Origin: Phytoseiulus persimilis | Lineage: Eukaryota; Arthropoda; Arachnida; Mesostigmata; Phytoseiidae | Length of the DNA: 64,000 bases | Reading direction: 5' to 3' | NCBI GenBank assembly: GCA_037576195.1 | Contig: CM075104.1 | Coordinates: forward strand, 8,438,775 to 8,502,774 | In this document: positions 6,601 to 61,647 of the stretch, piece by piece | How positions within the stretch are numbered: the stretch's first letter is position 1 | Layout of the letters: the number at the start of each line of letters is the position of its first letter | Program-made: the position numbers and the translations under genes | The notes under the pieces: generated by a model | What the model was told of the DNA's origin: nothing | The model's database searches: none | What the model saw: the letters and a program-made list of their open reading frames with translations, nothing else

Positions 6601-7740
6601 CGCAGAGATCATCCACTCAAGCCAGTCCACTGCTGGACTCCCATCAGCTGAGCAAATACTATGCGGACCTGGCAGCCGAGTCCGCCAAGCTCCGGATAGC
6701 AACTAGTGATAATAATGATCGAAATGAGCACACGAACTGAAGAGTGGATCACCTGTTCTCGACCCCGAGTTTCCGGGGTAGCTCGCCACATTTCGGACAT
6801 CCGAGATCTCATCAAATCGGGATAGAATAATCTCGAAATTCAAAGTTCTTCCCCGTTGTCGTGTGGCGAGGGGGGTTTGTCGTCACGGTTTGTTTATGAA
6901 CCGGTCGCCAGTTCGACTTTCCTACCCAAGTAGCGACGTACACAGCTTCGCCGCTACGTTCGCTCTCCTCCTACGCGTGACCGACCCCCTCGCTGTGTTT
7001 CAGACTCTTCTATGGGTGCACTGTTCCTGGTCAACGGTATCAATCTGGCACTGCTACCTCATCGAGCTCAACGCTCCGAAACGCACGACTTCAGAACCAG
7101 TTCCAGCGATCCCTCAGGATGTCGGAGAAATCTCAAGTTCTCGTTCCGGCGGATGGCTAGATACAAGAGCTGTGGCAAGAACAATCGAGATATCCTGATA
7201 ATTTTTTAGAGTACTGTTGTTCATCACTGAAAAATTTCTCTCCAACGATTCCTTCTCCCTTATCCATTGGAGAAGGAGCAGTACTGGATAATCAACTTTC
7301 TATATCAGTGATTGTCGAAGGCGGTGCATCCCCGGGGTGCATGGGAGATTTGCGGGGATGCAAGTGAGATTTTCGAGGGTTCGCTGGGTATCTGGCGTCC
7401 TGTCTCAGTTGTTCTTCTTCAGATCTGTATGAAGACGTAGAATGTTCAGAAAACGAAACGCGAAAAACAGACTCTCGAAATCTGGAGGAACAGGGAGTCG
7501 GACTTCCTTCCACCTTACAAGTACGAAAGCATCAAGATCTCACAATAAGATTTCCAATCGGGATAGCGAACGCCGCGGGAAATCGTCATATCTCCTGGGA
7601 TCTATTAGTTGAAAGCTGGAAAGAATCTCCGGTAACAATCTCCTACTAAGCTCGATTTCTCGCGCTTCCTGAACGTGAATGCCTTTTTCTGCGAGTGGGG
7701 CCGTGCTCCTTTCCCCGAACTGCATACATGAATGGCATGG
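3620..7740. other. No recognisable gene
   Basis: Open frames here are mostly unremarkable. Two look slightly exon-like. A minus frame at 5354-5575 has a W-x-L-x-V-x-x-G pattern faintly like a MATH domain. A plus frame at about 5640-5970 has LLLAEYFLFHGLDELV, faintly like the C-terminal helix of a BTB domain. They are on opposite strands and neither has a convincing partner exon, so no gene is called. Confidence 0.3.
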
Positions 7741-7954
7741 AAAAGTTCCTATGTATACTTGCTCATGAGTGGAGCGCTCTGTTTTTCGGGAGGGCGGAGC
7801 TCTTCCAACGCGAGGCTCGACCTCTCTGTTGAGACGCCTGCGATCTGTCGGTCATTTCTCTTCGAAAGTGTCGACAGTATAGTAAAGAGCCTGGCTTAGA
7901 CTGATTCGACATACCAACTCGTTTATTCCTTCCATAGCGAATATATCCGCTGAA

Positions 7955-8692
7955 TCAGCGGATACCACTACTGCCCCCCGCAAAAGAATTGTCCCTCCTG
8001 GGACTATACTTGACAACTCTCTTCAACGGGCTTGTTTTTGAGGCACCGCGCTCATCCTTGAATGAAATTTGTTTGGGTATCCCATCGAAATTCTCCACAC
8101 TAACAACTCGATAAGGACCTCCATACTTCAAAGTATTTCCAATCTTCACGAGGACTTGATCGCCAATGGCGAAATTTGTATTATTTGATGAATGCCTGGC
8201 GTCGGAGTTCTTCTTTTGGTTTTTGCGGACTGCATCTTCTTCCTCGGACGACCGCCTCTTCTCCTTCAAACGCAATCAAGTCCTTACGCCCATTTTTTCG
8301 TCGGCGGGAAGATGAGCGACCTCGTTCCTCAAAGCGAAAACGGGCGAGCAGCAAATAGTGCTGCAGTGCGAATAGTTGTCATGTCTCACTGCCGACTCCA
8401 AACTCTTCGTCCAACCACCTGGAAGCGGCGGGTACATAGCCATGAACGTTTTCAAATCTCGTACCAAACGCTCCGCTAAACCATTAGACTGTGCATTGTA
8501 CGCGCTGCCAACACAAATCCGCATTCCCTGCCGTGCTGCCCATTCCTTGAGTTTCTTGCTTTCGAAAACTTTCGCATGATCTGAAATCAGTACCCGGGTT
8601 CCCTCGAAAAATTTTTGCTCGAGCAGTTCGGTGACCGCGTCCGCATTCTCACGACCGGCTCTGGCGACTGCGAACCTCGAATTCCGATCAAT
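7955..8692 (-). pseudogene. Integrase, interrupted by a LINE
   Basis: The 3' portion reads IDRNSRFAVA, LISDHAKVFES, GSAYNAQSNGLAERL (DDE integrase core, with the second Asp and the Glu), then after a frameshift near 8276 FAIGDQVLVKIG and YRVVSVEN, the C-terminal integrase domain. The first catalytic Asp region lies across the LINE insertion: the frame next to the duplication at 9777-9789 reads VAID on removal of the insert. The product cannot be made as it stands. Confidence 0.75.
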
Positions 8693-13091: not shown

Positions 13092-13132
13092 ACCATCTTC
13101 AAAGTGAATGTTTCTAACCCACTTCCTGGAGG

Positions 13133-13422
13133 TGTAACAGCCAGTTGGATTCTTGAGGAGAGCTAGCTGGAATGTTCTCCGGAGATGCATGTCGGAGGCG
13201 GCAATGCCGGCAGTTCGACATAGGAAAGGGAAGCGGCGTTGACGGGAGAGGTCGCCAGTGGCTAGGAGGAGAGGAAGAGAGTGCCGTGAACGGTGTGAAG
13301 GACCGTGGCTGCCTATCGAGGAGCCGGTCGAGAAGAAGTAAAATAAAGAGAAGTTGAACTATAAGTGCACTGTCCCTCTTCCCTGAGTGAATCCAGGTAT
13401 AGGTCCCTATCGGCCTGTTACA
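13133..13422 (+). repeat. 5' LTR (290 bp)
   Basis: TGTAACAG...CTGTTACA, with AAATAAAG near 13340 as a possible polyadenylation signal. The sequence immediately following (AAGCAGCGG then TGGGATTCC) would be the primer-binding region, offset by about 9 nt from the LTR end. Confidence 0.92.
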
Positions 13423-13523
13423 AAGCAGCGGTGGGATTCCTCAGAGTGAAGTGGTGGACGAGTGAGTGACGCAAGGTGCACAGTCATCGAAGACGAGGTC
13501 AAGGTTACGGACCGTAACGGAAG

Positions 13524-14657
13524 ATGGACGCAATGAAGGATCTCAGGGAGGAGATCGAACAGCTCAAGAAGCTCTTGGAGAAGAATAATGCAGGAGCGAC
13601 AGACTCCGGAAGGATGGGAGGGGAATGGAAGGAGACCGCGAAAGCTGTTGAGCAGTTCCCGGGAGGAACGATCACTGAGGCGAGCGAGTGGCTTGAGGAC
13701 CTCATTGGAGCAAAGGACGCCGGTAAGTGGTCTTGGGAGTTCACCCGTTCAGTGCTGCTTGGGAGGATGATTGATTCCGCGAAGTACTGGCACCGCGAAT
13801 ACGGAACGAAGGCAGTAGATTTTGAGGAATGGGTAGGAGCATTCAAGGAGGCGTACATACCTCAAGAAAATAAGATGGAATTATTGGAGGAGATTCAAAG
13901 AATCAGGCAGGAAAAAGGGGAGACGGTAGAAAGATACGTCCGAAGGAAAGAATCACTCGCGAAGAGGTTAGGCTTAGCTTCGGAGGAAAGTAGGGACCAG
14001 ATTCTCAGAGGGTTACGTCCAGAGTATAGATTCTTGATTCACGAAATGTGCGGAAGGGTGCATAAAACGACGGCGGACTTAATTAGAGATATTATTCGGA
14101 GTATGGACATCGAGCGAGAAGTCAGGGGAGAACGGTTGCCGCCAGCGGACCGACGGGAAACGAGGCCCGGAGCAGGAGTGACTTGCTACATTTGTCGGAG
14201 GGAAGGAAACAAGCAGATGAACTGCCCGGACAGAAGGGAGCGTCGTGCGGTGGAAGGATACCCGAGTCGACCACCAAGGTCGGATTCGTTCGGAGGATCA
14301 CCAAGAGGGAATTCCGGGGATTGGCGAAGACAACCGACGGACGATTCGAGACAGCGCGGCAGATACGACACGAGAGGCCAACCAGGTCCATCAGGAGGCG
14401 GACATCGCGAACTGACGTGGAGAGAGACAGCAACACCGGGACCCGGACCAATCGTTTGTGGTCGATGCAAACTAACCGGTCACCACGCGAGGGAATGCAG
14501 ACGAGCTCGCCGAATAATAGCGACAGGGGATCACGAAGGGCGGACACTGCCAGAAGTCGAAGAACCTGCACCAGAAGTTTGCCAGATCCTAGATGGACTC
14601 GCGGGAGTCGAAACTGAAGAGGAAGACAGGGGAAGCAAAACTGTCCGAGTTAATTGA
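13524..14657 (+). CDS. Gag polyprotein with two zinc knuckles
   Basis: A 377-residue frame opens with ATG at 13524 and ends in TGA at 14655-14657. It has an N-terminal coiled-coil-like stretch (residues 5-22), a capsid-like Ty3/gypsy region (FTRSVLLGRMIDSAKYWHREY and following helices), an Arg-rich linker and two CCHC boxes. The first, near residues 217-230, reads CYICRREGNKQMNC, with Asn where the zinc-binding His should be. The second, CGRCKLTGHHAREC, is complete. The protease follows in the same frame; comparison with the sister element suggests the TGA replaces a Gly codon, separating a former Gag-protease fusion. Confidence 0.88.
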   Translation: MDAMKDLREEIEQLKKLLEKNNAGATDSGRMGGEWKETAKAVEQFPGGTITEASEWLEDLIGAKDAGKWSWEFTRSVLLGRMIDSAKYWHREYGTKAVDFEEWVGAFKEAYIPQENKMELLEEIQRIRQEKGETVERYVRRKESLAKRLGLASEESRDQILRGLRPEYRFLIHEMCGRVHKTTADLIRDIIRSMDIEREVRGERLPPADRRETRPGAGVTCYICRREGNKQMNCPDRRERRAVEGYPSRPPRSDSFGGSPRGNSGDWRRQPTDDSRQRGRYDTRGQPGPSGGGHRELTWRETATPGPGPIVCGRCKLTGHHARECRRARRIIATGDHEGRTLPEVEEPAPEVCQILDGLAGVETEEEDRGSKTVRVN

Positions 14658-14846
14658 ATCGAATGGCAAGCGAGAGTGGACACCGAAGCGCAGCTGAGCG
14701 TCATTCCTCAGAGTGCGGCGGAGGCTCTCAACTTGAAGATCAGCCCAGGAACAGTTCGACGAGTTCGAGGAGTAGGCGGAGGTTGCAACACGCTAGGTCA
14801 AGCGATAGCAAGTCTAGCGGTGGACGGCATCGAGGCGAAGAAGGTC
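14658..14846 (+). pseudogene. Truncated retropepsin fused to the SIAH insertion
   Basis: In the Gag frame just after its stop, the sequence reads RVDTEAQLSVIP, matching RVDTEAEISLIS of the element at 57579. The homology continues for about 55 residues (NLKISPGTVRRV, GQAIASLAVDGIEAKKV) and stops where SIAH homology begins, in a different frame, near 14843. The flap and the ILG-type C-terminal region are missing, so no working protease is expected. The active-site motif is D-T-E-A rather than D-T/S-G-A. Confidence 0.75.
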
Positions 14847-15529
14847 ACGGAGTCTGCTCGCAGTGTCGTGCTCGATTGGACAGGTGCGCACAGTGTCGGA
14901 CGCCGTTGGAAGGAGGAGTCCAGAGAAATCGCGCAATCGAGGCGCTGGCCACAGGGATGACCTTTCCCTGCCGACATGAGGAGTTTGGGTGCGTGGAGCG
15001 GCCCGAGTGGCAACAGAAGGCGTCGCACGAGCGGGAGTGCCGGATGAGAGGGACGGAGTGCCCGCTTCGCGAAGATGAGTGTCGTTGGCGAGGACCTAGC
15101 ACGGAGGTCGGAGCACACGCCCAACAACGACACAGGTGCACCATGATTCAGGCGGACGCGCAGACGGAGTTCCCAATGCGTAGGATGAGCCGACCAAACT
15201 ACGAGGCCAGATGGATCTGGACCCAACATGAGGAGTGGGTGGTGCTTGGAATCCTGGTGGAGGCTACGTTCGACCTGGAGCCGCAGTTGGTTCTGAGCCT
15301 GATGGTGCTAGGAACAGAGGAGCGAGCGTCAGCGTTCCGAGGGCGCATTTCAGTCATGACGGCCCAAACGCAACTGATTTGGGAAGGGACGCCGCTGAGC
15401 TCCGATGTCGAGGTTCGGGAGGCGATCCAAGCCGGGAGCGGCTTCTACATCGACGGGCGAGCGATGATTCGACTCGACCGAGAGGGAACAATCCGCATCG
15501 CGGCGTCAATCGAACGGAGTCATCAATAA
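14663..15529 (+). CDS. SIAH/seven-in-absentia-like E3 ubiquitin ligase in an LTR element
   Basis: The uninterrupted frame from the ATG at 14663 to TAA at 15529 gives 288 residues. Residues 1-60 are the protease region read in another frame. From residue 61 it matches SIAH: GHGVCSQC...CAQC (H62, C65, C68, C75, C78) is the second half of the RING. C103-x6-C110-x11-H122-x3-C126 and C133-x6-C140-x11-H152-x4-H157 are the two SIAH-type zinc fingers. About 175-285 is the C-terminal substrate-binding (TRAF-like) domain, ending in the expected IRIAASI-type strand. SIAH proteins are RING E3 ligases that recruit E2 enzymes and target proteins for proteasomal degradation. The first RING cysteines are missing, so E2 binding is doubtful while substrate binding and dimerisation may persist, which could make it a dominant-negative form. 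The intronless, LTR-enclosed copy implies acquisition of a processed host mRNA. Confidence 0.85.
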   Translation: MASESGHRSAAERHSSECGGGSQLEDQPRNSSTSSRSRRRLQHARSSDSKSSGGRHRGEEGHGVCSQCRARLDRCAQCRTPLEGGVQRNRAIEALATGMTFPCRHEEFGCVERPEWQQKASHERECRMRGTECPLREDECRWRGPSTEVGAHAQQRHRCTMIQADAQTEFPMRRMSRPNYEARWIWTQHEEWVVLGILVEATFDLEPQLVLSLMVLGTEERASAFRGRISVMTAQTQLIWEGTPLSSDVEVREAIQAGSGFYIDGRAMIRLDREGTIRIAASIERSHQ

Positions 15530-15671
15530 AACCCTTGTGATAGGTTAGCATACGCTCGCGCACAGCTAGAGTCATTATTCAGTAGGTAATTTCTTCTAGG
15601 GTTAGCTAGGCTCAGAGAATTCCAGGTTAGCATATGCCAGGAGGCATAACGACTAGGGTAGCATGGTCGAA
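15530..15671 (+). other. 3' untranslated region and plus-strand priming site
   Basis: AATAAAA directly follows the SIAH stop (the stop is within it), a possible host-derived polyadenylation signal. Just before the 3' LTR is TAGGGTAGCATGGTCGAA. The sister element has GGGTAGTAGCGTGGTCGAA at the same place, so this is probably the conserved plus-strand primer site, though it is not a standard polypurine tract. Confidence 0.45.
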
Positions 15672-15961
15672 TGTAACAGCCAGTTGGATTCTTGAGGAGA
15701 GCTAGCTGGAATGTTCTCCGGAGATGCATGTCGGAGGCGGCAATGCCGGCAGTTCGACATAGGAAAGGGAAGCTGCGTTTACGGGAGAGGCCGCCAGTAG
15801 CTAGGAGGAGAGGAAGAGAGTGCCGTGAATGGTGTGAAGGACCGTGGCTGCCTATCGAGGAGCCGGTCGAGAAGAAGTAAAATAAAGAGAAGTTGAACTA
15901 TAAGTGCACTGTCCCTCTTCCCTGAGTGAATCCAGGTATAGGTCCCTATCGGCCTGTTACA
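15672..15961 (+). repeat. 3' LTR (290 bp)
   Basis: Same length and ends as the 5' copy; differences seen by eye cluster at about 15774-15830 (for example GCTGCGTTT against GCGGCGTTG). Confidence 0.92.
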
Positions 15962-16194
15962 GAGGTTGACCACTTTCTAGTTCGTGTCATATTATGCCCC
16001 CCTTCAGTGCGCGCACAATGTGATAAACAGATCGAAAAAATATGTGGGGGACCAAGGTTAAAAAACTGTCCTTGGTCACCCTGAATTCATCGAATTTCAT
16101 GCTTAAACTCCAGAATATTTGATGGTGGAAGGCCCTGAGCCAGGAAAGATCATATTCTGAGCCGTGGAATACACAGAATCAGCCGCCCAGACAC

Positions 16195-16450
16195 CCAAGA
16201 GTTTGGTCAGATCGATCCCGGAATGACCCGCCCAGACCCCCAAAAGTATCATCAGATCGGTCCCGGAATAACCCCTCCAGCTTTTAAAAACTATGGTCAG
16301 ATATGTCCCGGAATCACCCCTCCAGGTTCTGAAAAGTATGGTCAGATGGATCCTGGAATCACCCCTCCAGGTCACGAAAAGCATGGTCAGATTGGTCCCG
16401 GAATACCCCGCCAGGTTTCAAAAAGTATGGTCAGATTGGTCCTGGACGGT
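16195..16450 (+). repeat. 45-bp tandem array, left arm
   Basis: Units recur exactly every 45 bp (GGTCAGAT at 16205, 16295, 16340, 16385, 16430, with a variant at 16250). Each unit reads GGTCAGAT-NGGTCCCGGAAT-ACCCCTCCAG followed by an A-rich join. Because 45 is a multiple of three, open frames run through the array; these are not taken as genes. Confidence 0.9.
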
Positions 16451-16829: not shown

Positions 16830-17115
16830 AGTTTGTACGGGATCGACCAATCTGACCATACTTTCTGGAAGTCTGGAGGGGTGATTCCGGGACATATCAG
16901 ACCATAGTTTTTGGAAGCTGGAGGGGTTATTCCGGGACCGATCTGAGCATTACTTTCCAAGTCTAGAGGGGTGGTTCCGGGACCAATCTGACCATACTTT
17001 TCAAAAGCTGGAGGGGTGATTCCAGGGCCAATCTAACCATACTTTTGGGAGTCTGGGCGGATAATTCCGGGATCGATCTGACCAAACTTTTGGATGTCTG
17101 GGCGGCTGATTCCGT
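16830..17115 (-). repeat. 45-bp tandem array, right arm
   Basis: This is the inverted counterpart of 16195-16450, with about six units of the same 45-bp sequence read on the minus strand. The unit sequences differ by several substitutions, so the arms have diverged. Confidence 0.88.
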
Positions 17116-17689
17116 GTATTCCACGGCTCAGAATATGATTTGCCCTGGCTCGGGGCCTTCCACCATCGAAAATTGTGGAGTTTGAGCATGAAATTCGATT
17201 AATTCAGGGTGACCAACGACAGTTTTTTAGTTTTTCAACCTTGGTCCCCAAGAATACTTTTCTGATCTGTTCATCACATTGTGCTCGCACTGAAGGGGGG
17301 CATAGTATGACACAAACTAGAAAGTGGTCAACCTCCAGGAAGTGGGTTAGAAACATTCACTTCGAAGATGGTCAACCTCCAGGAAGTGGGTTAGAAACAT
17401 TCACTTTGAAGATGGTAAGGTCCACTGGAAAGGTGGATTGTATTCTACTTTGATGGATGAAAGTATAGCGCAAGGATCCAGTCTCACCAGAAACATCTCC
17501 ACGAGTTCGAAAACTACGTTAATTGCATAACGAAAAGCTCGCTACATTCGGCTTGCCGGAAATTCCGCCACTTACTCAGCCTTCAGACTATCGAGCATTC
17601 AGCGTGCTCGAAAAGCTCCCCGTATCTCTCGTTACCATCGTTTCAAGGGCCTTGAGTTTTGGGATGAGCCGCGGCGTACATGACTTCTG

Positions 17690-21832: not shown

Positions 21833-23103
21833 TCATTCGCCGTATTTGAGATTGAAACCAACGCAATGAATGTACTGGACAAGCGTTAGTTCATTCGTTT
21901 CATATTGATCCACGGATCGTACTAAGCGCTGATTCAACTTCTCGAATTGTTTCCTTGAGCGAGGCGGCTTATGCCCCATCCTCAACATAAGCATCTCATT
22001 CTTAAACTTCTCTTCCAAACGCTGGTGATGACTTATCATCTCATAGATATTCGCGTGAGATTTCCCGACGCTCCGGTCAAGGCTTGGTGCCAGCCCTCAA
22101 GGTGATTCGTAGTTCTCGCGCCGAAGTTCTGGTAGTGGTTCCACGATTCCCTAGGATATGTGCCCTCATTCTCTAGCCACGTATCAATGAAGTACTCCTT
22201 GAAATTTTCCAATCCTGCATAGGCGGCATGGGTTTCGGAAGGAGATTCCGCTTGGATCTCGAGCCAGGCGTCATCTATCCTATTGAGAGGAACTAACGCA
22301 ATGGCGACACAGGAGCGCAGAAACTTGCGAATGATTGGATGATCGTAATGCGGAACGAGACCGTACTCTTGAACTTCCCGCCATAGACTCTGCGAGAAGT
22401 GGAAGGAGCAGCCTTTCCTTCCGGCCGACGGGAATTCTTCTTGAATAGCTTTGAGGGTTGACACCTCAAAATCCAGCTGGAAAGTGGCCGGATTGAAAAT
22501 TTTCCCGACGCTAACGGCAAAGCTTCTAAGCAACGAGAACATCCGACGGTAAGTTTCCTTGGCCTTGTCGGAGAGGAGAAAATATGCTGCGGGGATCATC
22601 TGACCCCTGAAGAACACATGTAGCGTATAAAGTTGTGTGAACAAGTGCGGAGTGACCCGAAAGGTGCCGTCCATGAATACGGTTGAGGCGTTGCATAGAA
22701 TAGATACTAGCTCTTCTGTCGAGAAACCGATAATTCTGTCATTCGAGCCGTCGTTGAAAAGAAGAAACGGGCGTCCATCTCTTGTCTGTGTCCAGGAGCC
22801 CTCTAGATCGATGACGGCGCGAGAAACTGGGAGCGGAGGTCGTACTCTGGCTCGAGCTCGGTACAGCGCAGTTGACACGGAACTGTATCCCGGCAGCACG
22901 GCTCCGAGACGCTCGACAGCGTGGACTCCTCGGAATTCGTTGAGCGTGCGTGCTACTACTTCCTCGTGAACCTGTTTACCGCTTCTCTGCGAGTCCTCGA
23001 CGATCCGTTGTTTCATGCGTCTTCCGGATATGAAGATAGGACAGCTGCCGGAGAAGATATGAAGGGTGTCACTGCTAAGGTCACGACGATTCAACGGACG
23101 CAA
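21833..23103 (-). pseudogene. MULE transposase, one frameshift
   Basis: The main frame (23103-22036) has VFMDGTFRVTPHLFTQLYTLH with the first catalytic Asp, AYFLLSDKAKETYRRMF, GCSFHFSQSLWREVQ and RTTNHLEGWH, in the order and spacing of MULE transposases. Near 22060 a one-base shift moves the remaining homology (KSHANIYEMI, then 22039-21833 with GHKPPRSRKQ and LNQRL) into another frame. An N-terminal FLYWCH-like zinc finger usual for the family is not apparent. Apart from the frameshift the protein looks well preserved, so loss of function may be recent or a sequencing error. Confidence 0.82.
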
Positions 23104-23848
23104 TGGGATAGAATCGGGGCTCTAGATCAGAGATGACGGGTGTTTACCTTTTCGATGATAGCCCTTGCGGGGCAGCCCTGAGGCTTTTTTTTTTTGCATC
23201 GACAATAAACAACACCATCGTTGCCTTTCTTCTCTACCTCGAAGAGGTGATTTCCAACTTCATAGAGGGGATTGTCCTTGACACTTGTTACAATTTTCAC
23301 ATTCATGATAACACGAAGAGGATATCGCTACTGAGTTCTCTGAGAGGCGTCAACGTGGGGAAAGTGCATCGATCTCCCCCGAGCGCAACGGGTATAAGAA
23401 ATCTGTACCCAATCGAGTCGGATGGATGCATTTTTAAAGGGACCTCCGACCGCTGAGCTGGCGGCGCGTTCGCTGCTCCGTGTTTACAGCCGCGAGATTG
23501 TACTCACAGTACTCACATCTGTGGCGGAGAATTCAGCACACGGTCGTTCCGAGAGCAGACAATGCGTAGCGTCTAGATGACATGAGCAACTAAGCCACTG
23601 TTCCAGACCGAAAAAGTCGGAATGTGGCCTAATTGAAGAACAGCTCGCCACCCTAACGCAACAAGTCGTGACATTTCATCCAGCGATTGTCTTGATTTGC
23701 TCAGTGGTTCTTCTCTGATAACCAGCGCTCTTCATGTGCTTTCCCACACCGCGTTTTCGTCCTCACCCGTGACAAACTCACGAGCTCTAGAATATAGCTT
23801 CGTTCTCCTCTTTTTTCCGTCTTCGTTTTCTCCGTCATGGTGCTGGAT

Positions 23849-34513: not shown

Positions 34514-35044
34514 ATGTCGGTCACGAGGACCAAACCGGCCTGTTACTGCGAGATGCCCTCCGGCAAGCCATTTAAGAATACTCTGCACATCGAGGAGATC
34601 GGTCATCATTGGTTTGGCTTCACCATCAAGGATCGTCCGTCCTACACTGATAATCCCAAGTTCTGGGACGTCATAAAGATCGGACGCCGACTCGCTGAAA
34701 AGCGGATGATCTACTCTGCGGAAGTCACCGGTCAGTCAGAATACATCCGTGATTTGTGCAATGTACGACGTATGTTTTGTATGTTTTAACGACAACAGTT
34801 TCATCCAAGAGTTTGGAGAGAAGCTCTGGTACCGTCAAACCGACGAGTACCAGGATCAGTATGAAAAATATGCGGACTGCAAGCGTCGCGACTAGGGGTC
34901 GCAGGCTCCGACTCGGACTCGTCGGACTCGCGAGTCCGAGTCCACGAGTCCAGGTTAGGGCGCAAAATCTCGGTCACGGGTTCGAGTCCCAAAATCTCTG
35001 ATCATGAGCGAGTACGATCGGAAACGGAGGCTGACTTTCGTTTG

Positions 35045-35310
35045 AGAATCACTGACTGGAGGGATGATTCCGGGACCAATCTGACCATGCTTCGCCAAAC
35101 CCAAAGGGATGATTCCGGGTCCAATCTGACCATACTTTTACAAGGCTGGAGGGATGATTCCGAGATCAATCTGACCATAACTTTCCAACTCTGGAGGGGT
35201 GATTCCGGGACCAATCTGACTATTACTTTCCAACTCTGGAGGGATGATTCCGAGACCAATCTGACCATGATTTTCCGAAACTGGGGGGATGATTCCTCTC
35301 AAAAATCCAG
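35045..35310 (-). repeat. 45-bp tandem array, left arm
   Basis: About six units of (GGAGGGATGATTCCGGGACC)-AATCTGACCAT-(C/A)TTT joins, the minus-strand form of the units at 36120-36760 and clearly related to those at 16195-17115. Confidence 0.9.
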
Positions 35311-35400
35311 CCCAGGGACTTGAGGAAAGCACGAAATGTTGGCATACGGTCCGCAGCCGCCTCAGAACGCTGGAGCTGATTTTGTATCACACTCGCCCTC

Positions 35401-35976
35401 TTGCAATGCCTGCACGACCTTAACTCGGGTCTGTCAATACTTCTCCGCAATCCGGTGGCCCTGGAAGTACTGGAACGAAGGACAGGCTACTCGAGCGTCC
35501 TACAATATCACCTGGACCCAAGGTATGACTGGTCGTTCGAAGACTCGCTCGGCATCGAGCGGGTCAACCAATCGGAGATTCGGAACCTGCTCCACGGCAT
35601 CGCGCATGTTGTCAATGTTTCTGGCGGCATCGGAGAGGAAGCGCTCTTGCCTAACGCAACGCCTTCGTTCGCCATTAATTTCCAGAATGTATTCAGTACG
35701 CCGTTGCGTTCGCCAGGGACTCCGTACGAGGCGGAGCCGATCTCCGGAAGAATACTCCGGGAAATGAAACGTTTCGAAGCTGGCGAGCAACATTGCATGA
35801 TCCTCAAATCGTGCTGCAACCGACTGCTGACTGTTCAGTCAACGTCAGTAAAGGCTGAGCGTGAGATTAGCATCATGAATCACGTTTGCTCAAAAGTTCG
35901 GAATTCCCTCAGCCCCAGAACACTCGACAACCTGGTGGTTCTTCGGGCTCTCCATCGCGACACTGCTATGCTATAA
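35401..35976 (+). pseudogene. hAT transposase C-terminal fragment
   Basis: The open frame of 191 residues ends with LTVQSTSVKAEREISIMNHV and CSKVRNSLSPRTLDNLVVLR, the hAT C-terminal dimerisation region (S-T-S-x3-E-R, then K-x-R-x-x-L-x-P-x-x-x-x-x-L-v-x-L). Upstream there is LLRNPVALEVLERRTGYSS without clear catalytic motifs. RNase H-like core residues and the BED finger are absent, so the element is non-autonomous. Confidence 0.7.
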
Positions 35977-36119
35977 CTTCGAAGAAAGAGACAAGACTTG
36001 GGAGAAATTTCAGAAGTAATTGAAATCCGTAGAGTTTGATGGATTCTCCGATAACCACTTGTTGAGAAATTGTTCAAGAAGGATACTGGGGAAGCATGCT
36101 CTCGATATCATGCCCCTCC

Positions 36120-36760
36120 AGGTTTGGAGAAGTATGGTCAGATTGATCTCGGAATCATCCCTCCAGTCTTGTAAAAGAATGGTTAGATTGATCTCGGAAT
36201 CACCCCTCCAGTCTCGTAAGAGTATGGTCGGATTGATCTCGGAATCATCCCCCCAGTCTTGTAAAAGTATGGTCAGATTGGTCCCGGAATCATCCCTCCA
36301 GAGTTGAAAAGTAATGGTCAGATTGGTATCGGAATCACCCCTCCAGAGTTGGAAAGTAATGGTCAGATTGATCTCGGAATCATCCCTCCAGTCTTGTAAA
36401 AGTATGGTCAGATTGATCTCGGAATCATCCCTCCAGTCTTGTAAAATTATGGTCGGATTGATCTCGGAATCATCCCTCCAGTCTTGTAAAAGTATGGTCA
36501 GATTGGTCCCGGAATCACCCCTCCAGAGTTGAAAAGTAATGGTCAGATTGGTGTCGGAATCACCCCTCCAGGGTTGGAAAGTAATGGTCAGATCGATCTC
36601 GGAATCATTCCTCCACTCTTGTAAAAGTATGGTCAGATTCGTCTGGGAATCACCCCTCCAGCTTTCGAGAAGTATGGTCAGATTGGACCCGGAATCATCC
36701 CTCCAGGTTTGGCGAAATATGGTCAGACTGGTCCCGGAATCATCCCTCTAGTCAGTGATT
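36120..36760 (+). repeat. 45-bp tandem array, right arm (about 14 units)
   Basis: GGTCAGATTG-type starts recur every 45 bp from about 36135 to 36720. Unit variants alternate between GATCTCGGAATCATC with CAGTCTTGTAAAAG and GGTCCCGGAATCACC with CAGAGTTGGAAAG. The frame MVRLISESSLQSCKS is an artefact of a 45-bp period and is not called as a gene. Confidence 0.92.
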
Positions 36761-37185
36761 CTCGAACGAAAGTCAGCCTCCGTTTCCGATCGTACTAGCT
36801 CAGAATCAGAGATTTTGGGACTCGAACCCGTAACAGGGATTTTGCGCCCTCACCTGGACTCGTGGACTCCGAGAGATAAGGACTCGCCAGTCCGAGTCCG
36901 GACTCGTGGATTTTCGCGACCCCTAGTCGCGACGCTTTTCTTCGCATGACGATGGACGTCCTTCAAGAACTTATTGGTGAGGGTGATCCAATGCTGGAGG
37001 GAAAGAGTTTCACGTTCTGGTTTGACCAGGCTCTCGAGGAAATTCCTTATGAAACATGGAAGGGCAATTGAGAAGAATGAACTCCAGTCTAACGATACTA
37101 TGATTTGATTATTTTCTGTGTGAAAGGTACAATTGTTCGTCGTTAGATGGCGCTTCGAGTCAATGTTTACGTTTTACTAGTTCTA

Positions 37186-41935: not shown

Positions 41936-44132
41936 TTAGCTGCACCTCTGTTTCGTAGCGCTTTGGCTTATCGCAATCGGAGGAATCATGCGCGTCCATA
42001 AAATCAGTGGCTCCATCGGCGGTTCCCAAACCGGAGACATGCGCTGCACTCCTTGGTGCCTTCCCAAGAACCTGACGTCTTTGGTTTCCCTAATTGAGGG
42101 AGGAGAACCTGGGAGATACACACGAAAGCCGTCAACACATGGCGTCAAAGACAATGGCAAAGACATGGCGTCTTTCATATTCATACAGCAGCGTTCTCCT
42201 TTGAGACTAGGAGTTGACATAGGACCACACAGATCAGTGGGAATGTATCCCAGGGACCGTGGTGCAGCTGAATCGGGTTTTGAGCGATACGTCGCCCGAT
42301 TCAGTTTTCCTTCAATACAGGCAGTGCAGGTGATCTGGTCCCTCTTGAAGGGAATCCCCTCTCGAGCTAAAAATTGCTGAACTTGGCGTTTATTAACGTT
42401 TCCAAGTGTTTCATGAGCACTCTGTAGAGTGACTGATTGTGACGAAGAAAGCAAGCATTCGGCAGATATGGGAACCGTCATAGCTGTAGCTCGGAGGGCA
42501 AGAAGGCCGTCGTCCATTCGAACCCTGAGAGTAGCCAAGTCTCGGTTCAAGCGAAGGGTGGTCTTAGTGGCAGTATTTGACCAATTGTCATTCATCAGAC
42601 AGGCCATCGACACGAGGTTTCGCCTCATTTCGGGCACATAGAGAACCTCATGGAGATGTGAAAGAGTTTCCCCATTGGAGCCGTCCACAACAAGCAAGAC
42701 CTCGCCTTCACCAAACGCTTGAAGTTGTTGGTGACCACCGACTTTCACAGTACGGGGGCAAGAGTACGCGAGATAATTCCGGAAAAGATCCAAATCATTG
42801 CAAATATTGTGGGTTGCCCCATAGTCGATTAACCATACCGAATAATCAGGATTCTTATGCGCAGCAGAGGCAATGTGAACCTCGACATCAGATCCGAAGG
42901 GATCGATTGTCTCAGCATTATAGGCTGTTGGGCGAGAAGTGCGCCTCTGATTCAGAGGTGGCTGGCGTGAGCTTGGGGGTTGGGTCGAAACACGAGGTCG
43001 AGAAGGTTGGCTTGATCGCCAAGCATTAGCGGGTGGAGCTCAAGTTGGATTGGAGGCGACTCTTCGGTTTTGATTTGAGTTCTGGTAGCGAGCATTGGAG
43101 TTGGAGTTGTACGAGTTAGAATTGAAGCGGGAAGTGCGTTGAAAATTATTCGAAGGACGTGATTGAGGTCAGTAAGACGAGTTCTGATTACGACGATTGT
43201 CGTATTGAGGACGATTGTTGAAGTTGGGCCGTCTATTTGAGCGAATAGAGAGACGAGAGAACAAGGCGGTCGGATCCGCCTGGGAGGAGTTTTCACGTCG
43301 CATTGCTTCTTCACGGAGAAGAACGTAAAGGTTGGGAAGAGTCTGATCTGTTCCGGTTTTAACACTCCAGAACAAACGAAGACCTCCCCAGGACCAGGGC
43401 AAGCTCTGCAAGAGACGCTGGCATGACTGTTTCTCGTCCACCTTCGTACCAGCAAGCGCGATGCGCTGCATAATTTGTTGGAAATTATCGACATTCTTCG
43501 TCGTAGATTTCGAAGAATTGTAGCGGAAGTTAAAGAACGAGCTAAGAGCTATGGGTTGAGCAATACCGCTTGTTTGAGCAAAACGCTTCTTCAGTGCCTC
43601 ATAGAGATCTTTCGCATTGAGATCTTGGGTAGAAATGCTGAAGTACGTGGCTATCAGAACGGGGGAGATTGAGTTAAGGATGATTGTTTTGGCCATAGCG
43701 TTCGGAGCTTGATAGCCGGTCGCTGTTATAACAAGATTGCCAGAAACACCTTTTTGGGCTTCACCGCTGTTCTGCAGGACCACGGTGACCAGTGAAGACC
43801 ACGCGAGCCAGTTTCTGCCATAATCAGCCAATGTGATGCTGCATGCATGATTGGATTTCGAACCAGATCCGCTTGCGGAAGAGGAGTCAGCCATCACTCT
43901 CTCTTCAGGAGACTCTAGGAGCTCGTAATCGTCAAGATTAAACGAAGCTACGGTCCCTGGAGCACTTTGCATGGGCCGAAGAAATATACCTGACTGCAAC
44001 TGTATTAGCTGAGCTGTAGCTAAGTGAGTAGGTTGAGGTCAGCTTACCCGACAGTAATCGATCGCGAGGTCACGCTGTGTCGTCACGTAGCGAACACAAG
44101 GCTGGTAACGTGATAGGAGTGGAAGTTATAGG
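41936..44132 (-). mobile_element. Ty1/copia retrotransposon fragment
   Basis: Minus-strand order: Gag (43972-43169), a gap with Asn/Arg-rich sequence, protease and integrase N-terminus (about 42870-41936). Gag is of the UBN2 type (YGRNWLAWSSLVTVVL; KDLYEALKKRFAQ; SLPWSW). The protease block reads WLIDYGATHNICND. GAG-pre-integrase features (SAHETLGNVNKRQVQQFL; CTACIEGKLNR) follow, then RSLGYIPTDLCGPM. After that the frame jumps to GFRVYLPGSPPSIRETKDVRF, the segment normally after the integrase core, so the core, RT and RNase H are deleted. The leader at 44000-44132 is cut by the gypsy insertion; leader or LTR-like sequence appears to resume after 49504. Confidence 0.78.
43169..43972 (-). pseudogene. 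copia Gag
   Basis: ATG at 43972 (MQSAPGTVASFNLDDYE). About 268 residues, rich in Ser/Asn at the end; no CCHC knuckle is seen before the frame is lost. It is the nucleocapsid precursor of the copia element. Confidence 0.65.
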
Positions 44133-45232: not shown

Positions 45233-46140
45233 CTAGAACACGATCTGGAACGGGTAGTACGCTGACGTTGTTATCATTAGAGGTTCTTTCGACTGACGCG
45301 GCTGGTATGCCAGACAAGATTGGCATGAGTCGCACCAATCCTGGAGTTCGGATTTCGAAGATGGCCAGGAAATGCATTCTCTAGCTTTTTTCCAGGACGC
45401 TGTCGCATTGTAGTGGCTGGCATGTGCTCGTTTCAACATGTCCCGTCTCAGCGTTCTCGGAATGTATGTCGCTGATCCCTTGAATATTGAGTTACCCTCA
45501 GTTGTGAGTTCTGAACGGTATTTCCAGAAGGGTCGAAGTTTCCCGGGACATTTTTCTTTCGATTTCGGCCACCCCGTCGAAATCGCGTTTCTCAACAACG
45601 TCGACTCGAAACCGTTTTCGCCTGCCCCCTCGATCTGCTGCAGGCTAGAGTTCTCGATTCTGTAGACGAGACCTTCGTCCACGACAAATGGATGAGGGAT
45701 GGAAAATGTGTCACGGCTCAGCCAATCGGCGAAACAGTTTGCCTTGCCCTTCACGTACTGCACGTCGATGTTGTACTTCTGGAGGTATGGGAGCATTCTT
45801 TGGAGTCGCTTTGGGTTGCTATGCAATGTTTTTTTGAAGCAGGCAATCAAGGGCTGATGGTCGGTTTGCACTACAACCTGTGGATGGCCGAAAATGTAGT
45901 GATCGAATCTCTTACATGCGATTAGGATGGCCGATAGCTCCTTCTCTACAACGGCATAGTTAAGTTCGGTAGGTCTGAGTGCCGAGCTACACAGATCCAC
46001 TGGCCGTGCATCTTGCAGCAATGCCGCGCCAACACCATTCTGACTCGCATCCGTTTGAATGAGGATAGGTTTGTTTACGTCGAAGTACGCTAATGTCGGT
46101 GCCTTCGTAAGTGCCTCTTCTCGAATGCAACGACCTAACT
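45233..46140 (-). pseudogene. RNase H and integrase zinc finger
   Basis: PILIQTDASQNGVGAALL (RNase H Asp), ELNYAVVEKELSAIL (Glu), QTDHQPLIACF and KGKANCFADWLSRD, then an H-H-C-C integrase finger (HASHYNATASWKKAR, CDSCQSCLAYQ). Confidence 0.85.
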
Positions 46141-46779
46141 TTCCATCCATCGGAAATCCACTCCGTCCTTCAACAGAACACGCAGAGGTGTCGTTAGCTC
46201 GGAATAGCCCGGAATGAACTTGCTCAGGTAGTTGGTGGCTCCGAGAAACCGAAGGAGCGACTTCCTGTCTTTGGGCGCCTGACAATCGTGAAGAATTCTG
46301 ATCTTCTCGGAATCGGGTTTTACTCCTTCGCGAGAAACCGCGTGCCCCATGTACTTAACTTGCGGGACGCACAATCTCAGCTTGCTCTTGTTGAGACGAA
46401 GATTCTTCTCTCTGCACCTTTGGAAGAATGCTCTGAGATTCAAACGATGATCCTCGGACGTTTCTCCGTGAATGAGAATGTCATCGGTAATGATCTCTAT
46501 GCCACGCAGGCCCTCCAGAGCCTGTGTCTGTTTGGCCTGGTATACTTCGGGTGATATGCTTAACCCTTGTGGCATGCGCAGATATTTGTATCTCCCCAAC
46601 GGTGTCCAGAATGTCGTAAGGTCGGTGGAGTCAGGATCCAATTCACATTGGAAGAAACCATCGGATGCGTCGGCGACTGAAAGATATTCGGCTTTGGTCA
46701 GGCGAGGCAATATGTCGGACAGCACGGGGAGTTGATAGTGTGATCCGTTTCGTGGCCTTGTTGAGATGGAATAGATCAA
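46135..46779 (-). pseudogene. Reverse transcriptase, central part
   Basis: LPVLSDILPRL, LSVADASDGFFQCEL (catalytic Asp), RMPQGLSISPEVYQ and EIITDDILIHG, where the Y-x-D-D box reads I-T-D-D, then KYMGHAVSREGVKPD and LLRFLGATNYLSKFIPG. A further frameshift near 46140 leads to RNase H. Confidence 0.85.
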
Positions 46780-57578: not shown

Positions 57579-57808
57579 TGTCAGAGACGGAATTCGATGG
57601 GTGCGAATGGAGTCTAAAAGTAGAGGGCGCAGGCACGTGTTGGCCGCGAAGGGGAGAGATGGATCGGGAAAGGGGGACACACAGCAAGTGAACGTCGCAA
57701 GAGGAAGAGAAGCAGTGTGACTAGTAAGAACAATCAAGAATAAATACTGTGCGAGTGTAAAATATACAGTGTGCGTACCAGATACTCCAGGCCCTATACA
57801 CGCTCACA
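57579..57808 (+). repeat. 5' LTR (230 bp)
   Basis: TGTCAGAG...CGCTCACA with AATAAAT near 57741. TTAGCAGCGGTGGTG follows, sharing AGCAGCGGTGG with the element at 13133. Confidence 0.93.
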
Positions 57809-57898
57809 TTAGCAGCGGTGGTGAAAAAGAACAACGGTGTCAAAAAGACAGAGAGGAAGAAAAAGAGAAGACCAAGGAACTTGAAGCACGGAAACGAG

Positions 57899-60139
57899 AT
57901 GGAAAAGGAGACAGCAGAAACACTGAGGATGGTCATGGAGGGGATGAAGATGCTGAATCAACAAATGGTCGAGCAACAAAGAAAGAGGGAGGAAGGAACA
58001 GACGATACGAAGAAAGTCGAGAGGACGGAGCGTCTCGTTGACACCTCTACATCGTTGCGAGCATTCTCAGGTGGGACCGTAGCGGTGGCAGAGGAGTGGT
58101 TACAGGATGTGATTCAGGCCACAAAGACGGGTAGATGGAGTGAGGAATATACGAAAAGTGTGCTGCAAGTGAAGTTGGTTGGACCGGCGAAGTGGTGGTA
58201 TAGGGACTATTGCGGGGAGGTAGAAACTTTCGATGAATGGCAGAAACTATTCGAGGAGACCTATACACCAAGACAGAAACGGAGGGAATTAATGAATGAA
58301 TTTTTGAAAGGAATACAGAGAAGGGGAGAAGGTTTAGAGATGTACATCAGGAGGACGGAGCATGCGGCGAGAAAGTTAGGGGTCGAAAATGAGGAGATAA
58401 AGGAACAGATTATAGAGGGACTACTACCGGAATACGAGTTCCTGCAACACTTAATGATGGGGAGAAGTCATAAGAACATGACGGAGTTGTATAAGGATAT
58501 TCAAGAAACAATGGAAAAAGAAAGGTTACGGAAAAGCAGACCGGGTGCATCGGGATTCAGAGGGGAGAGTCGAACAGAGTTACGAATGACGTGCTACATC
58601 TGCAATAGGGAGGGACATAAGCAAGCATGGTGCCCAGAAAGGACTAGGATCGGACACGGACGAGGAAGTCCGGATCGTCGTGAAATTGGAGGATATGGGA
58701 ACTCATGGCAAGGAGAGGCAGGAAGAGGTAGGGCTCAGGGATACGCGCCAGGGGATCAACTTCGAGGAAGTCCAATGAGGGAAGGACCAAGGTACCAAGG
58801 AGAAACCTGGGGACGGGCAGAGCCAACTAGAGGACCACAGTCAGGACTAAGAACACCAACAAGGGAGATTACATGGAGGGAAACAACGAGCGGATCACGC
58901 GGAGGACCACCAGCAAGGGGAGGAGCGACAACGTCGGGTACATCGCCAGGTGTGACGTGCTTCAGATGCCAGGGAGTGGGACACACGGTGAGGGAATGTC
59001 GAAACATTAGGCACGTAGAAGAAGATTGGAGATTCGAAGAAATCAAACCGGTGGCGTCAAGTCGAGAACGGGGGTTGAAAAAGGTTATGGTAAATGGCAA
59101 GGAATGGACAGCAAGGGTAGACACAGAAGCGGAGATAAGCCTCATTTCAGAAAAATCAGCGGAGGAATTGAACTTGAAACTGACCCCGAGCGCGGTAAAA
59201 GCGATACGTAGCATCGGAGGAGGTTCTTGCAAACCGGTAGGACAAGCACAGGTACGACTGGAAGCGGACGGACTAGAGATAGAAAATGTGACGTTGACAG
59301 CGCTGCCAGAGGGAGCAATGGAAGAGAGGGAAATATTCCTGGGGAAGGATCTCATTGATAAAGAAATGGTGATAGTCTATCGCGGGGGAAAATCATGGAT
59401 ACTGAGGGACGAAACTTTTGAAGAAATCACGAAGATGTTGCCGAAGGAAGAAGAGCGAGTCAGTTTGCAGACGAAAGAAGAAGTGACGCTGGGACCGCGA
59501 ACAGTAGCAATGGTACGAGTGATACCACAGGAGAAGACAGAGGGGATCATAATGATAGAGGTCCAACAAGACTGGGGAGCAATTTGTCAGATACAGGAAG
59601 AATTAGTGATACCGGTAGCGAATTTGGGGAGACAAGAAGTTATCTTGGGCGAAGGAACGATTGTTGCACGAGGGAAAAGGATAGAAGAAGGCGAGCTTTT
59701 CAGACTCAAACGGACGGGAGCGAGTATAAACCGTGTGGCGGTAGAGGAGAACACGGCCGAGCGGAATATTGGGGAAGAAGACATTCACGTAGACCCGGGT
59801 ACACCGAAAGAATACAGAACCGAACTCGTGAGGATCTTGAATACACATCGGGAAGTAATAGCCACATCAATGAGGGAATTAGGACGAACGACACTGACTG
59901 ATTTCGACATTGAAGAAATTAAGGACAGCCGGCCAGTGAGGTGCAAACCGTTTCGATTATCCGTGGTAGAAAACCAAGCACTGAGGGACATAGTCCAACA
60001 ATTAGCCGATGCAGGCATGATTGAACGCTCGAGCTCCGAATACGCAAGCCCGGTGATGTTGGTGAAGAAAGCCGATGGTGGATGGAGAATGGTCATAGAT
60101 TATAGAAAACTAAATGCGCAGACCGTCAAATTGAACTAA
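57899..60139 (+). CDS. Gag-protease-RT polyprotein (ends at a premature stop)
   Basis: ATG at 57899. Gag: LPEGxx-free capsid-like region with VLQVKLVGPAKWWYRDYCGE and LLPEYEFLQHLM, then knuckles CYICNREGHKQAWC and CFRCQGVGHTVREC. Protease: RVDTEAEISLISEKSAEEL with D-T-E-A in place of D-T/S-G-A, then REIFLGKDLI in place of the ILGxDxL motif. RT start: FDIEEIKDSRPVRCKPFRLS, GMIERSSSEYASPVMLVKK, GWRMVIDYRKLN. It ends at TAA 60137-60139 where related elements continue into the LPLIDEIL block, which follows in frame after the stop, so this is a point nonsense change. Confidence 0.88.
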   Translation: MEKETAETLRMVMEGMKMLNQQMVEQQRKREEGTDDTKKVERTERLVDTSTSLRAFSGGTVAVAEEWLQDVIQATKTGRWSEEYTKSVLQVKLVGPAKWWYRDYCGEVETFDEWQKLFEETYTPRQKRRELMNEFLKGIQRRGEGLEMYIRRTEHAARKLGVENEEIKEQIIEGLLPEYEFLQHLMMGRSHKNMTELYKDIQETMEKERLRKSRPGASGFRGESRTELRMTCYICNREGHKQAWCPERTRIGHGRGSPDRREIGGYGNSWQGEAGRGRAQGYAPGDQLRGSPMREGPRYQGETWGRAEPTRGPQSGLRTPTREITWRETTSGSRGGPPARGGATTSGTSPGVTCFRCQGVGHTVRECRNIRHVEEDWRFEEIKPVASSRERGLKKVMVNGKEWTARVDTEAEISLISEKSAEELNLKLTPSAVKAIRSIGGGSCKPVGQAQVRLEADGLEIENVTLTALPEGAMEEREIFLGKDLIDKEMVIVYRGGKSWILRDETFEEITKMLPKEEERVSLQTKEEVTLGPRTVAMVRVIPQEKTEGIIMIEVQQDWGAICQIQEELVIPVANLGRQEVILGEGTIVARGKRIEEGELFRLKRTGASINRVAVEENTAERNIGEEDIHVDPGTPKEYRTELVRILNTHREVIATSMRELGRTTLTDFDIEEIKDSRPVRCKPFRLSVVENQALRDIVQQLADAGMIERSSSEYASPVMLVKKADGGWRMVIDYRKLNAQTVKLN

Positions 60140-61647
60140 CCTTTACCACTGATTGACGAGATTCTGGATGGCGTCGGGGGAAAAACATATACTCAACGTT
60201 CGATCTAGCTTGGAGGTACTTGCAAATACCAATGACAAAGAGGGCGGCGGAAAAGGCGGCATTTGTCACGAGCGAAGGACATTACGAACCGAGGGTTTTA
60301 ATGATGGGACTATGTAACGCACCCGCAAAATTCCAAGAACTAATGGTACGAGTGAAGGAGATGGTAGGCAAACAACAGGCATTTCCGTTCCTCGACGATT
60401 TAATAACAGCATCGGACCGATTCGACGAACATCTACAGCAGATTGAGAAAATCTTAGAAGCATTGAGGGCCGCTGGACTTACTATACGACTTGCCAAATG
60501 CAAATTTTTCATGGAGACGGTAGAATTTTTGGGATTCAAGATATCGAAAGAAGGGGTCCGACCTGGAACAAGGAAGCTGGCAGCGGTGTCGGAGTTCGCA
60601 ATACCGAAAGACGTGCATGAGGTTAGAAGATTTCTGGGATTAACATCATTCTTCAGACGATTCGTCAGGAATTACGCGACAATATCGAATCCTCTAACGG
60701 AGCTGCTGAGGAAAGGGGCAGAATTCAAGTGGACTGAGAAGTGTAAGGAAGCGTTCGAAAGATTGAAACAAGAGTTACTAAGAGACGCGGTGCTGGAGCG
60801 ATATGAACCCGGGAGGAGGACAGAATTACACACGGACGCAAGCTGCGTAGGACTGGGGGCGATACTGATTCAAGAAGTAGAAGGAAAGATGAAAATGGTC
60901 TATGCGATCAGTCGGAAACTTTCGGAGACAGAGAAGAATTATCACTCAACAAAATTGGAGCAGCTAGCCGTAGTATGGAGTATGGAACGGTTGAGGCATT
61001 ATTTGTACGGGCAAGAGTTCACAGTAGTTTCGGATTGTAGTGCGGTAGCAGCACTGAAAAAAGAGGGAGGCTCAACACAGATGAGTCGGTGGCTCGATAG
61101 GATCGCGGAGTTCAACTTTTCGGTGAGACATAGAGCGGGAACAGCGATGGGGCACGTTGACGCGCTGAGCAGAGAACCACTCGAAGACGGGAGAGACTCA
61201 GAGGAGAGGAAATCACCGGCAGAAACCGAGGCGAAAACGATATTCACAGCATTGGCGACCTACGACGAGTTTCAAATGATCCAGGCAGCCGATCAAGACA
61301 TCAAAGAGAGACTGGAAGCGTTCAAGAAAACCAAAGAGGAAAGAACAAAGAGGGAAAATAATATCACGCAGGGGTTTTGCGTAAGACATGGAATACTATA
61401 CAAGGAACTTGAGGGGAAACGATTGTTCGTTGTACCGAAGGCCATGAGGAAATACATATTGGTGGTGGCGCACGACAAAGGGGGACATTTCGGAATCGAC
61501 AAAACTTTGGAAATTATGAAGGCAACATATTGGTTCCCAAACATGAGGGAATATACAAAGTGGCATCTGAAGGCGTGCCCAGAGTGCATCTTCAGTAAGG
61601 ATCTTTCGGGGAAGAAAGAGGGCATTGTGTCAAACAGCGGATCATAG
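60140..61647 (+). pseudogene. RT, RNase H and integrase zinc finger
   Basis: After the stop, PLPLIDEILDGVGGK is in the old frame. A one-base shift near 60195 then puts FDLAWRYLQIPM and everything downstream in the frame of 60220-61647. RT: MMGLCNAPAKFQELM, FPFLDDLI (F-L-D-D box), FLGFKISKEGVRPG. RNase H: ELHTDASCVGLGAIL, KNYHSTKLEQLAVVW, SDCSAVAAL and GHVDALSRE. Integrase finger: HDKGGHFGIDKTLE with CPECIFSKDL. Homology ends at GKKEG (61620), where the integrase core should start. Confidence 0.88.

Follow-up and report, generated by a model that had tools for sequence, protein, structure and literature searches.

An internally deleted LTR element in Phytoseiulus persimilis and its Ty3/gypsy-type family with a SIAH-type ORF3

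We analyzed a 64,000-bp stretch of the genome of the arachnid Phytoseiulus persimilis (GenBank assembly GCA_037576195.1, contig CM075104.1, positions 8,438,775 to 8,502,774), hereafter the window, which contains a 2,829-bp long terminal repeat (LTR) element at positions 13133-15961. We read this element as a copy, probably inert, that has lost an internal segment and that belongs to a Ty3/gypsy-type family active in the recent past, with the order LTR, gag-pol, ORF3, LTR, in which the third open reading frame (ORF3) encodes a zinc-knuckle protein fused to a SIAH-type E3 ubiquitin ligase (RING, double zinc finger, and TRAF-like domain). The probability that we assign to this reading, including the origin and role proposed below for ORF3, is roughly 0.72. 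We observed directly how the elements are built and what the window copy has lost, that the family is mobile, that the frame is uninterrupted, and that synonymous changes are in excess in the SIAH part.

The deleted copy and its whole-anatomy relatives

A first-pass annotation, made from the sequence alone, had described the element as an LTR retroelement in which a SIAH-type ligase was captured in place of pol. Its inventory of parts was accurate (Table 1). The two 290-bp LTRs start with TG, end with CA, differ at 5 of 290 positions (98.3% identical), and are flanked on both sides by GAGG. The Gag frame gives a Retrotrans_gag match above the Pfam cut-off. The ligands of the 288-codon frame (C103/C110/H122/C126 and C133/C140/H152/H157) have the double-finger spacing of SIAH exactly as claimed, and the Sina_ZnF match of this frame (4.6e-16) is above the cut-off. 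Only the second half of a RING is present, as had also been stated: Sina_RING aligns at positions 16-35 of 35, under its cut-off, and the first three of the eight zinc ligands were lost at the deletion described below. The copy is without reverse transcriptase (RT), RNase H, and integrase, which are deleted, and a stop at 14655-14657 terminates its gag frame at a place where the frames of two other copies, L036 and L038, continue into pol.

By base composition alone, the chance that 225 codons stay open is about 3e-4. SIAH1 (PDB 4c9z) was the best PDB match found with phmmer (3.5e-13, residues 98-265 of the 291-aa frame). An AlphaFold2 model of the window frame, based on 18 aligned proteins, had a mean predicted local distance difference test score of 59; in blocks of ten, the scores were 72-91 in the zinc fingers and 35-68 in the C-terminal domain. 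With this model, all 17 Foldseek matches at E≤0.001 were SIAH1 or SIAH2 (best 8.8e-11, template modeling score to the target about 0.5). As Foldseek scoring includes sequence, this result supports the predicted kinship of the frame with SIAH and not the accuracy of the model. In the first structure model, that of the L036 ORF3, the C-terminal domain was poor.

A search of the 181-Mb genome with window positions 14780-15680 gave 35 matches from 34 candidates, and the window locus was the only one to span both sides of the protease-SIAH junction. In L036 and L037, the pol side and the SIAH side were separate matches, with starts 4.3-4.4 kb apart. When the parts of the window element were mapped onto 20 fetched regions, 14 of them of the same family (family A), three copies were found to hold both LTRs and the gag, protease, and SIAH parts in order: L035 (6,640 bp), L036 (7,083 bp), and L037 (7,106 bp). 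These whole-anatomy copies have 3.8-4.3 kb between the protease part and the SIAH part that are absent from the window copy.

Pfam identified Retrotrans_gag, gag-asp_proteas, RVT_1, RT_RNaseH, Integrase_H2C2, and rve in L036, i.e., gag, protease, RT, RNase H, and integrase in Ty3/gypsy order. Its ORF3 (6942-8129, 396 residues including one before the ATG) starts about 260 bp past the end of the pol frame. Two knuckle-like motifs (zf-CCHC 14.2 bits, under the cut-off) are followed by acidic repeats, a complete SIAH RING (Sina_RING 8.2e-12, 35/35 positions), the zinc fingers (Sina_ZnF 1.2e-13), and the C-terminal domain (Sina_TRAF 7.3e-5, 23.6 bits, under the cut-off). All eight RING zinc ligands are kept in the ORF3s of L036 and L035, and three A-family copies match Sina_RING over 35/35 positions at >50 bits. 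The L035 ORF3 is without the knuckle part, its match beginning at aa 102, and that of L037 is broken by a frame change and a stop.

Compared with L036, the window copy has lost 4,248 bp from mid-protease to mid-RING, with a 7-bp overlap at the junction. Its half RING stems from this deletion, not from gene capture. A 30-mer across the junction, searched with up to 3 mismatches, was found once in the genome, in the window, so that no other copy was seen with the junction that the first-pass annotation had proposed to look for, the SIAH-bearing family itself being multi-copy. That annotation had explained the element by a processed host SIAH mRNA transduced during reverse transcription, which replaced everything after mid-protease, and by movement of the chimera as a new element. 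An uninterrupted SIAH part joined to mid-protease, between intact LTRs and an intact target-site duplication, is what such an event would leave. However, the other copies hold pol followed by the same SIAH region, and in L036 the two sides of the junction are separated by the 4,248 bp missing from the window copy; the junction itself was found only once. The transduction account, to which we give next to no credence, is thus refuted, except in the case that the whole-anatomy copies arose by misassembly. What can be kept of it is that the SIAH part lies in one frame, as opposed to the spliced host gene that the annotation had suggested looking for: this gene was found at L046, the only locus that looks cellular, with SIAH exons split over several frames. 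The replacement of pol cannot be kept.

A separate derivative, L041, has lost 5,231 bp across a 10-bp overlap, has its own target-site duplication, and contains a 342-aa frame in which Gag runs directly into the zinc fingers. The overlaps at the two junctions would fit template switching in reverse transcription and later deletion alike. There was no sign of amplification of either derivative, the window junction occurring once in the genome and L041 being one copy in the fetched regions. The window copy probably represents a dead end, and a function for this copy itself is improbable; a RING-dead SIAH-like competitor could possibly be made from it, only if an internal ATG were used.

Sina_ZnF had 17 matches in the genome, and 16 of these lie in elements or remnants, judged by fetched loci and matches: 11 in family A, 3 in a family B, and 2 in a family C. 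Counts of "SIAH-like" paralogues in such genomes may partly represent transposon genes. We rejected the idea of a cellular SIAH gene family merely lying beside elements, because LTR-bounded copies at different sites contain the SIAH region within them, downstream of pol (or gag) and ahead of the 3' LTR. Two neighbouring copies, L045 and L054 (C3:32232500-32242000 and 32241500-32250500), have the same pattern of damage, as if an old insertion of family A had been copied by segmental duplication.

Table 1 Features of the window element, of a comparison element in the same window, and of the A2 loci
Feature	Position	Strand	Remarks
Target-site duplication GAGG, left	13129-13132	.	
5' LTR	13133-13422	+	290 bp, TGTAACAG...CTGTTACA
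Gag ORF	13524-14657	+	Retrotrans_gag 6.7e-9, above Pfam cut-off
Capsid domain in Gag ORF	~13767-14021	+	
Zinc knuckle in Gag ORF	~14454-14501	+	Weak match
Aspartic protease, N-terminal part	14658-14849	+	Truncated by the deletion; Pfam Asp_protease_2 1.1e-5; whole protease in L036
288-codon ATG-started frame and stop	14663-15529	+	Out-of-frame protease leader, then 3' part of ORF3 (SIAH)
Deletion junction	14843-14849	+	7 bp common to both sides; L036 3198-3204 (pol) and 7446-7452 (RING)
SIAH RING, second half	14843-14896	+	Histidine and last four cysteines
SIAH double zinc finger	14945-15151	+	Pfam Sina_ZnF 4.6e-16
SIAH TRAF-like (substrate-binding) domain, putative	15272-15460	+	Sina_TRAF 24.5 bits, cut-off 24.8; phmmer SIAH1; Foldseek
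3' untranslated stretch	15530-15671	+	Before 3' LTR; common to whole-anatomy copies
3' LTR	15672-15961	+	
Target-site duplication GAGG, right	15962-15965	.	
Comparison Ty3/gypsy element	57579-63858	+	230-bp LTRs 57579-57808 and 63629-63858, 2 differences
ORF3 of comparison element	62726-63280	+	185 aa, CCHC-type knuckles, zf-CCHC 1.6e-7
A2 locus	C1:8773761-8774237		
A2 locus	C1:2986131-2986607		
A2 locus	C4:23283223-23283642		
A2 locus	C1:50795285-50795764		

The window is rich in transposons. Tandem repeats of 45 bp lie in inverted copies at 15962-16441 and 16845-17335, one arm of the pair starting precisely at the end of the 3' LTR, and also at 34935-36872. On the minus strand, frames with a MULE transposase domain (22039-23121), a Pol_BBD domain (41939-43039), which we take to be Copia-type, and RNase H/integrase domains (45236-46354) were also found.

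Mobility of the family and apparent constraint on ORF3

The family has moved recently, as judged from five distinct target-site duplications, low LTR divergence, and the 40 genome matches (71-100% identity) of an LTR probe. The five LTR-bounded copies are each flanked by a different 4-bp duplication: GAGG (window), TATC (L035), CATG (L036), CGTC (L037), and AAGG (L041). Their LTRs differ at 5/290, 6/293, 1/293, 8/290 (plus 2 gap positions), and 4/293 positions, respectively, a divergence of 0.3-2.8%, and the youngest pair is that of L036, not that of the window. The recent movement that had been proposed for the chimera thus applies to the family; the chimera itself, with its single junction and its LTRs 98.3% identical, was not seen to move.

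Part of the family appears to have a mixed ancestry. When L039, L042, L043, L045, and L052 were compared with L036, synonymous divergence (dS) was 0.30-0.42 in ORF3 and 0.09-0.13 in RT and in the RNase H-integrase region (RH-IN), so that ORF3 is about three times as divergent as pol in these pairs. Windowed identity to L036 is 93-99% in pol and falls to as low as 83-88% just past it in L042, L043, L045, and L052, while in L039 the drop at this place is only to 90-94%. Such a pattern would be expected if lineages had exchanged their 3' ends; alternatively, the local rate may be unusual.

For the part of ORF3 from the RING to the end, 15 sequences were offered and 14 rows aligned, L053 being without a match. 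Pooled pN/pS was 0.26 for this part; the corresponding values were 0.28 (gag), 0.30 (RT), and 0.46 (RH-IN). The window copy and L036 differ by 14 synonymous and 3 nonsynonymous changes over 228 codons. A synonymous excess was found in all seven pairs tested against L036 (13 were available), with one-sided p values from 0.0011 to 7.5e-16; the neutral share was 0.763 from site counts, half counts were rounded, and the pairs are non-independent since all share L036. On this evidence, the SIAH part of ORF3 looks constrained in the family, and the first-pass proposal that neutral evolution of this region be looked for among copies was answered by apparent constraint. Because the constraint mainly predates the insertion, it is evidence about the ORF3 of the family rather than about this one copy.

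Relatives, a possible second retrotransposon class, and the proposed origin of ORF3

The window also contains a related Ty3/gypsy element at 57579-63858, with CACA on both flanks (ends and CACA read by eye) and an integrase 57-58% identical to that of the SIAH family. No SIAH match was found in its knuckle-bearing ORF3 (62726-63280), and the approximately 350 bp from the ORF3 stop to the 3' LTR are too short for a SIAH module.

An integrase search, in which 138 of 616 candidates were scored, gave 140 matches. The first 41 of these 140 were examined for ORF3 matches (48 of 104, transcribed by hand) within 3.5 kb downstream of the integrase. At 86-100% integrase identity, 10 of 11 loci had an ORF3 match, eight with RING or zinc-finger parts and two of the RING-less A2 type described below. 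At 69-75%, part of the RING was present in 3/5, two of these also with knuckles. At 61-64%, ORF3 matched in 10 of 14, nine by the knuckle stretch only (aa 4-43) and one by knuckle and RING; in L059, the one member of this class that was read, knuckles were found (zf-CCHC 2.9e-6) but nothing matching SIAH. None of the 11 loci at 45-58% had an ORF3 match, which does not mean absence, as the ORF3 at 62726-63280 itself escaped the ORF3 matches listed. Knuckle identity is 56% between families A and B, 51% between A and L059, and 47% between A and C. Since the comparison element has a knuckle-only ORF3 without room for SIAH, the simplest history, as far as sequence comparison can tell, is probably that the knuckle ORF3 came first and SIAH was added to it later; alternatively, the relatives may have lost SIAH. 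A staged history, from knuckle-only to knuckle plus SIAH, is thereby suggested.

Family C looks like a second class of retrotransposon, BEL/Pao-like by its sequence matches. In L048 (C3:24821000-24829000, minus strand), an integrase-type frame is followed by one that combines knuckles with Sina_ZnF (40.3 bits, above the cut-off) and with a part resembling a RING (Sina_RING 20.2 bits, under the cut-off). L051 (C1:53079000-53087000, minus strand) has a Sina_ZnF match of 27.4 bits, under the cut-off, also after an integrase-type frame; the latter matches DUF5641 above the cut-off, presumably a mark of BEL/Pao. The integrase frames of L048 had no Pfam match, and their relatives (66-72% identity) are part of longer frames, of approximately 1,850 aa, that also contain the Pao Peptidase_A17, e.g., C3:23457861 with C3:23459382. 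At six loci, such an integrase is closely followed by a match to the L048 ORF (L048, C2:1345034, C2:6088442, C1:52522873, C1:44170628, and L051); in three of the six, this match reaches only as far as the knuckles, and at C1:44170628 it reaches aa 156. A search for LTRs in L048 and L049 found no repeat pair.

The zinc fingers of family A are 34% identical to those of L048, 39% to those of L051 (over 28 columns), and 33-38% to those of family B. Identity to the host gene is 26-29% for A, B, and L048, and 33% for L051.

Several observations weigh against our reading. The RING identities (A-B 46-50%, A-C 42%, A to host L046 47%) do not group the elements apart from the host, and a tree of ten zinc-finger rows is without resolution and has a long host branch. 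Given these identities and this tree, transfer between families and two captures are both compatible with the data, and a single capture is not demonstrated. Knuckle matches abut the integrase match at C2:6449621 and C2:6396788 and, lying outside the distance rule, were counted as none. The pol of L036 is spread over two overlapping frames, and other copies have stops or indels, so no copy was seen to be fully open. The short protease piece has a pN/pS of 0.91. As for the full-length SINA C-terminal domain of the first-pass annotation, phmmer and the moderate-confidence model speak for the domain, and Pfam extends over positions 19-81 of 97 only, with a score just under the cut-off (Sina_TRAF 3.9e-5, 24.5 bits versus 24.8). 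Finally, four A-family loci adjoining LTR matches, perhaps five, form the A2 group, which is without RING and zinc fingers: ORF3 aa 1-83 are joined to about 325-396 (the last ~70 residues), and the junction is similarly placed in the four. Together with L041, these loci show that RING-less forms have been copied or at least inserted, and the RING may thus be dispensable. The possible fifth locus, C3:16725059-16725265, has the last ORF3 part only among the matches listed.

If the RING did not matter, ORF3 would be a non-catalytic adaptor or packaging protein acting through its knuckles and its SIAH C-terminal domain, and the RING-less forms (window, L041, A2) would be functional variants. The four A2 loci, the in-frame Gag-SIAH fusion of L041, and the knuckle-only ORF3s of relatives agree with this explanation; the eight ligands kept in L036 and L035 and the full-length Sina_RING matches of three A copies do not, and we consider it rather unlikely. 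That SIAH was captured once and has since been carried as a functionless passenger is less likely still. Excerpts of a study of bdelloid rotifer elements do report ORF3s without significant departure from neutrality (PMC5408684). However, the synonymous excess extends to all seven comparisons tested here, and family B and the BEL/Pao-like family have likewise retained parts of the RING or zinc fingers of ORF3.

Proposed role and comparison with known systems

In the reading that we prefer, the SIAH module would derive from a host-type SIAH mRNA and would have been fused to a knuckle ORF3 that was already present, prior to the divergence of families A and B. The ORF3 product may be an accessory E3 ligase or adaptor that acts in trans for the element: the knuckles could tether it to particles or RNA of the element, target choice would fall to the C-terminal domain, and the RING would ubiquitinate the target, either Gag itself or a host protein acting as a block to transposition. 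More tentatively, the knuckle-SIAH ligase might be a mobile accessory module that two LTR superfamilies (Ty3/gypsy and BEL/Pao) of a single animal genome have exchanged through template switching, and that promotes transposition through ubiquitination of a host restriction factor or of Gag itself.

A protein database search with ORF3 returned one SIAH homologue, P0003, and a search of viral contigs returned no homologue. With P0003 as the query, 13 SINA proteins including itself were found (P0003-P0015), known without genomic context; two are named termite proteins (Zootermopsis, Cryptotermes), and several come from short metagenome contigs. No paper on a SIAH-bearing LTR element was among the matches listed in a literature search of titles and abstract openings that covered few subscription journals and no bioRxiv preprints. 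One paper, PMC8905726, was discarded as a SIAH source, as "Siah" is an author's name there.

The closest precedent, from the excerpts of the source used here, is that of the bdelloid rotifer LTR retrotransposons, which have an ORF3 after gag and pol (Rodriguez et al. 2017, PMC5408684). As in these elements, an extra ORF lies past gag-pol, some such ORFs are enzymatic, and one ORF type is common to unrelated retroelement classes. The bdelloid enzymes in the excerpts are a GDSL esterase and a DEDDy exonuclease, whereas the ORF3 described here encodes an E3 ligase of SIAH type and shows signs of constraint; RING, ubiquitin, and SIAH are absent as whole words from the text of that paper. Additional ORFs between pol and the 3' LTR are also found in many copies of plant LTR elements, and those in sense orientation include env-like ones, unlike ORF3 here (excerpts of PMC7264820); "ubiquitin" and "RING finger" are absent from that text, as are "ubiquitin" and "SIAH" from PMC6338049, on accessory domains in retrotransposon polyproteins. 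As far as these excerpts go, the extra ORF past pol that is common to retroelement classes is a known kind, from bdelloids and, more loosely, from plants.

ORF3 has the RING and double zinc finger of cellular SIAH/SINA E3 ligases (SIAH1, PDB 4c9z; L046), followed by a putative TRAF-like domain, in the same order as in these proteins. In contrast to them, it is without introns, has N-terminal knuckles and acidic repeats, and lies inside an LTR element; its identity to the host is 28% for the zinc fingers and 47% for the RING. LTR elements are known to give rise to non-autonomous derivatives that are gag-only or internally deleted, and the window copy and L041 likewise keep LTRs, gag sequence, and the 3' end without pol, with no sign that either was amplified. 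Retroviruses usually recruit cellular ubiquitin ligases via small adaptors. If our reading is correct, an element with knuckles and its own selected SIAH-type ligase would solve the same problem in another way and would offer an approach to the host proteins that oppose transposition in this animal.

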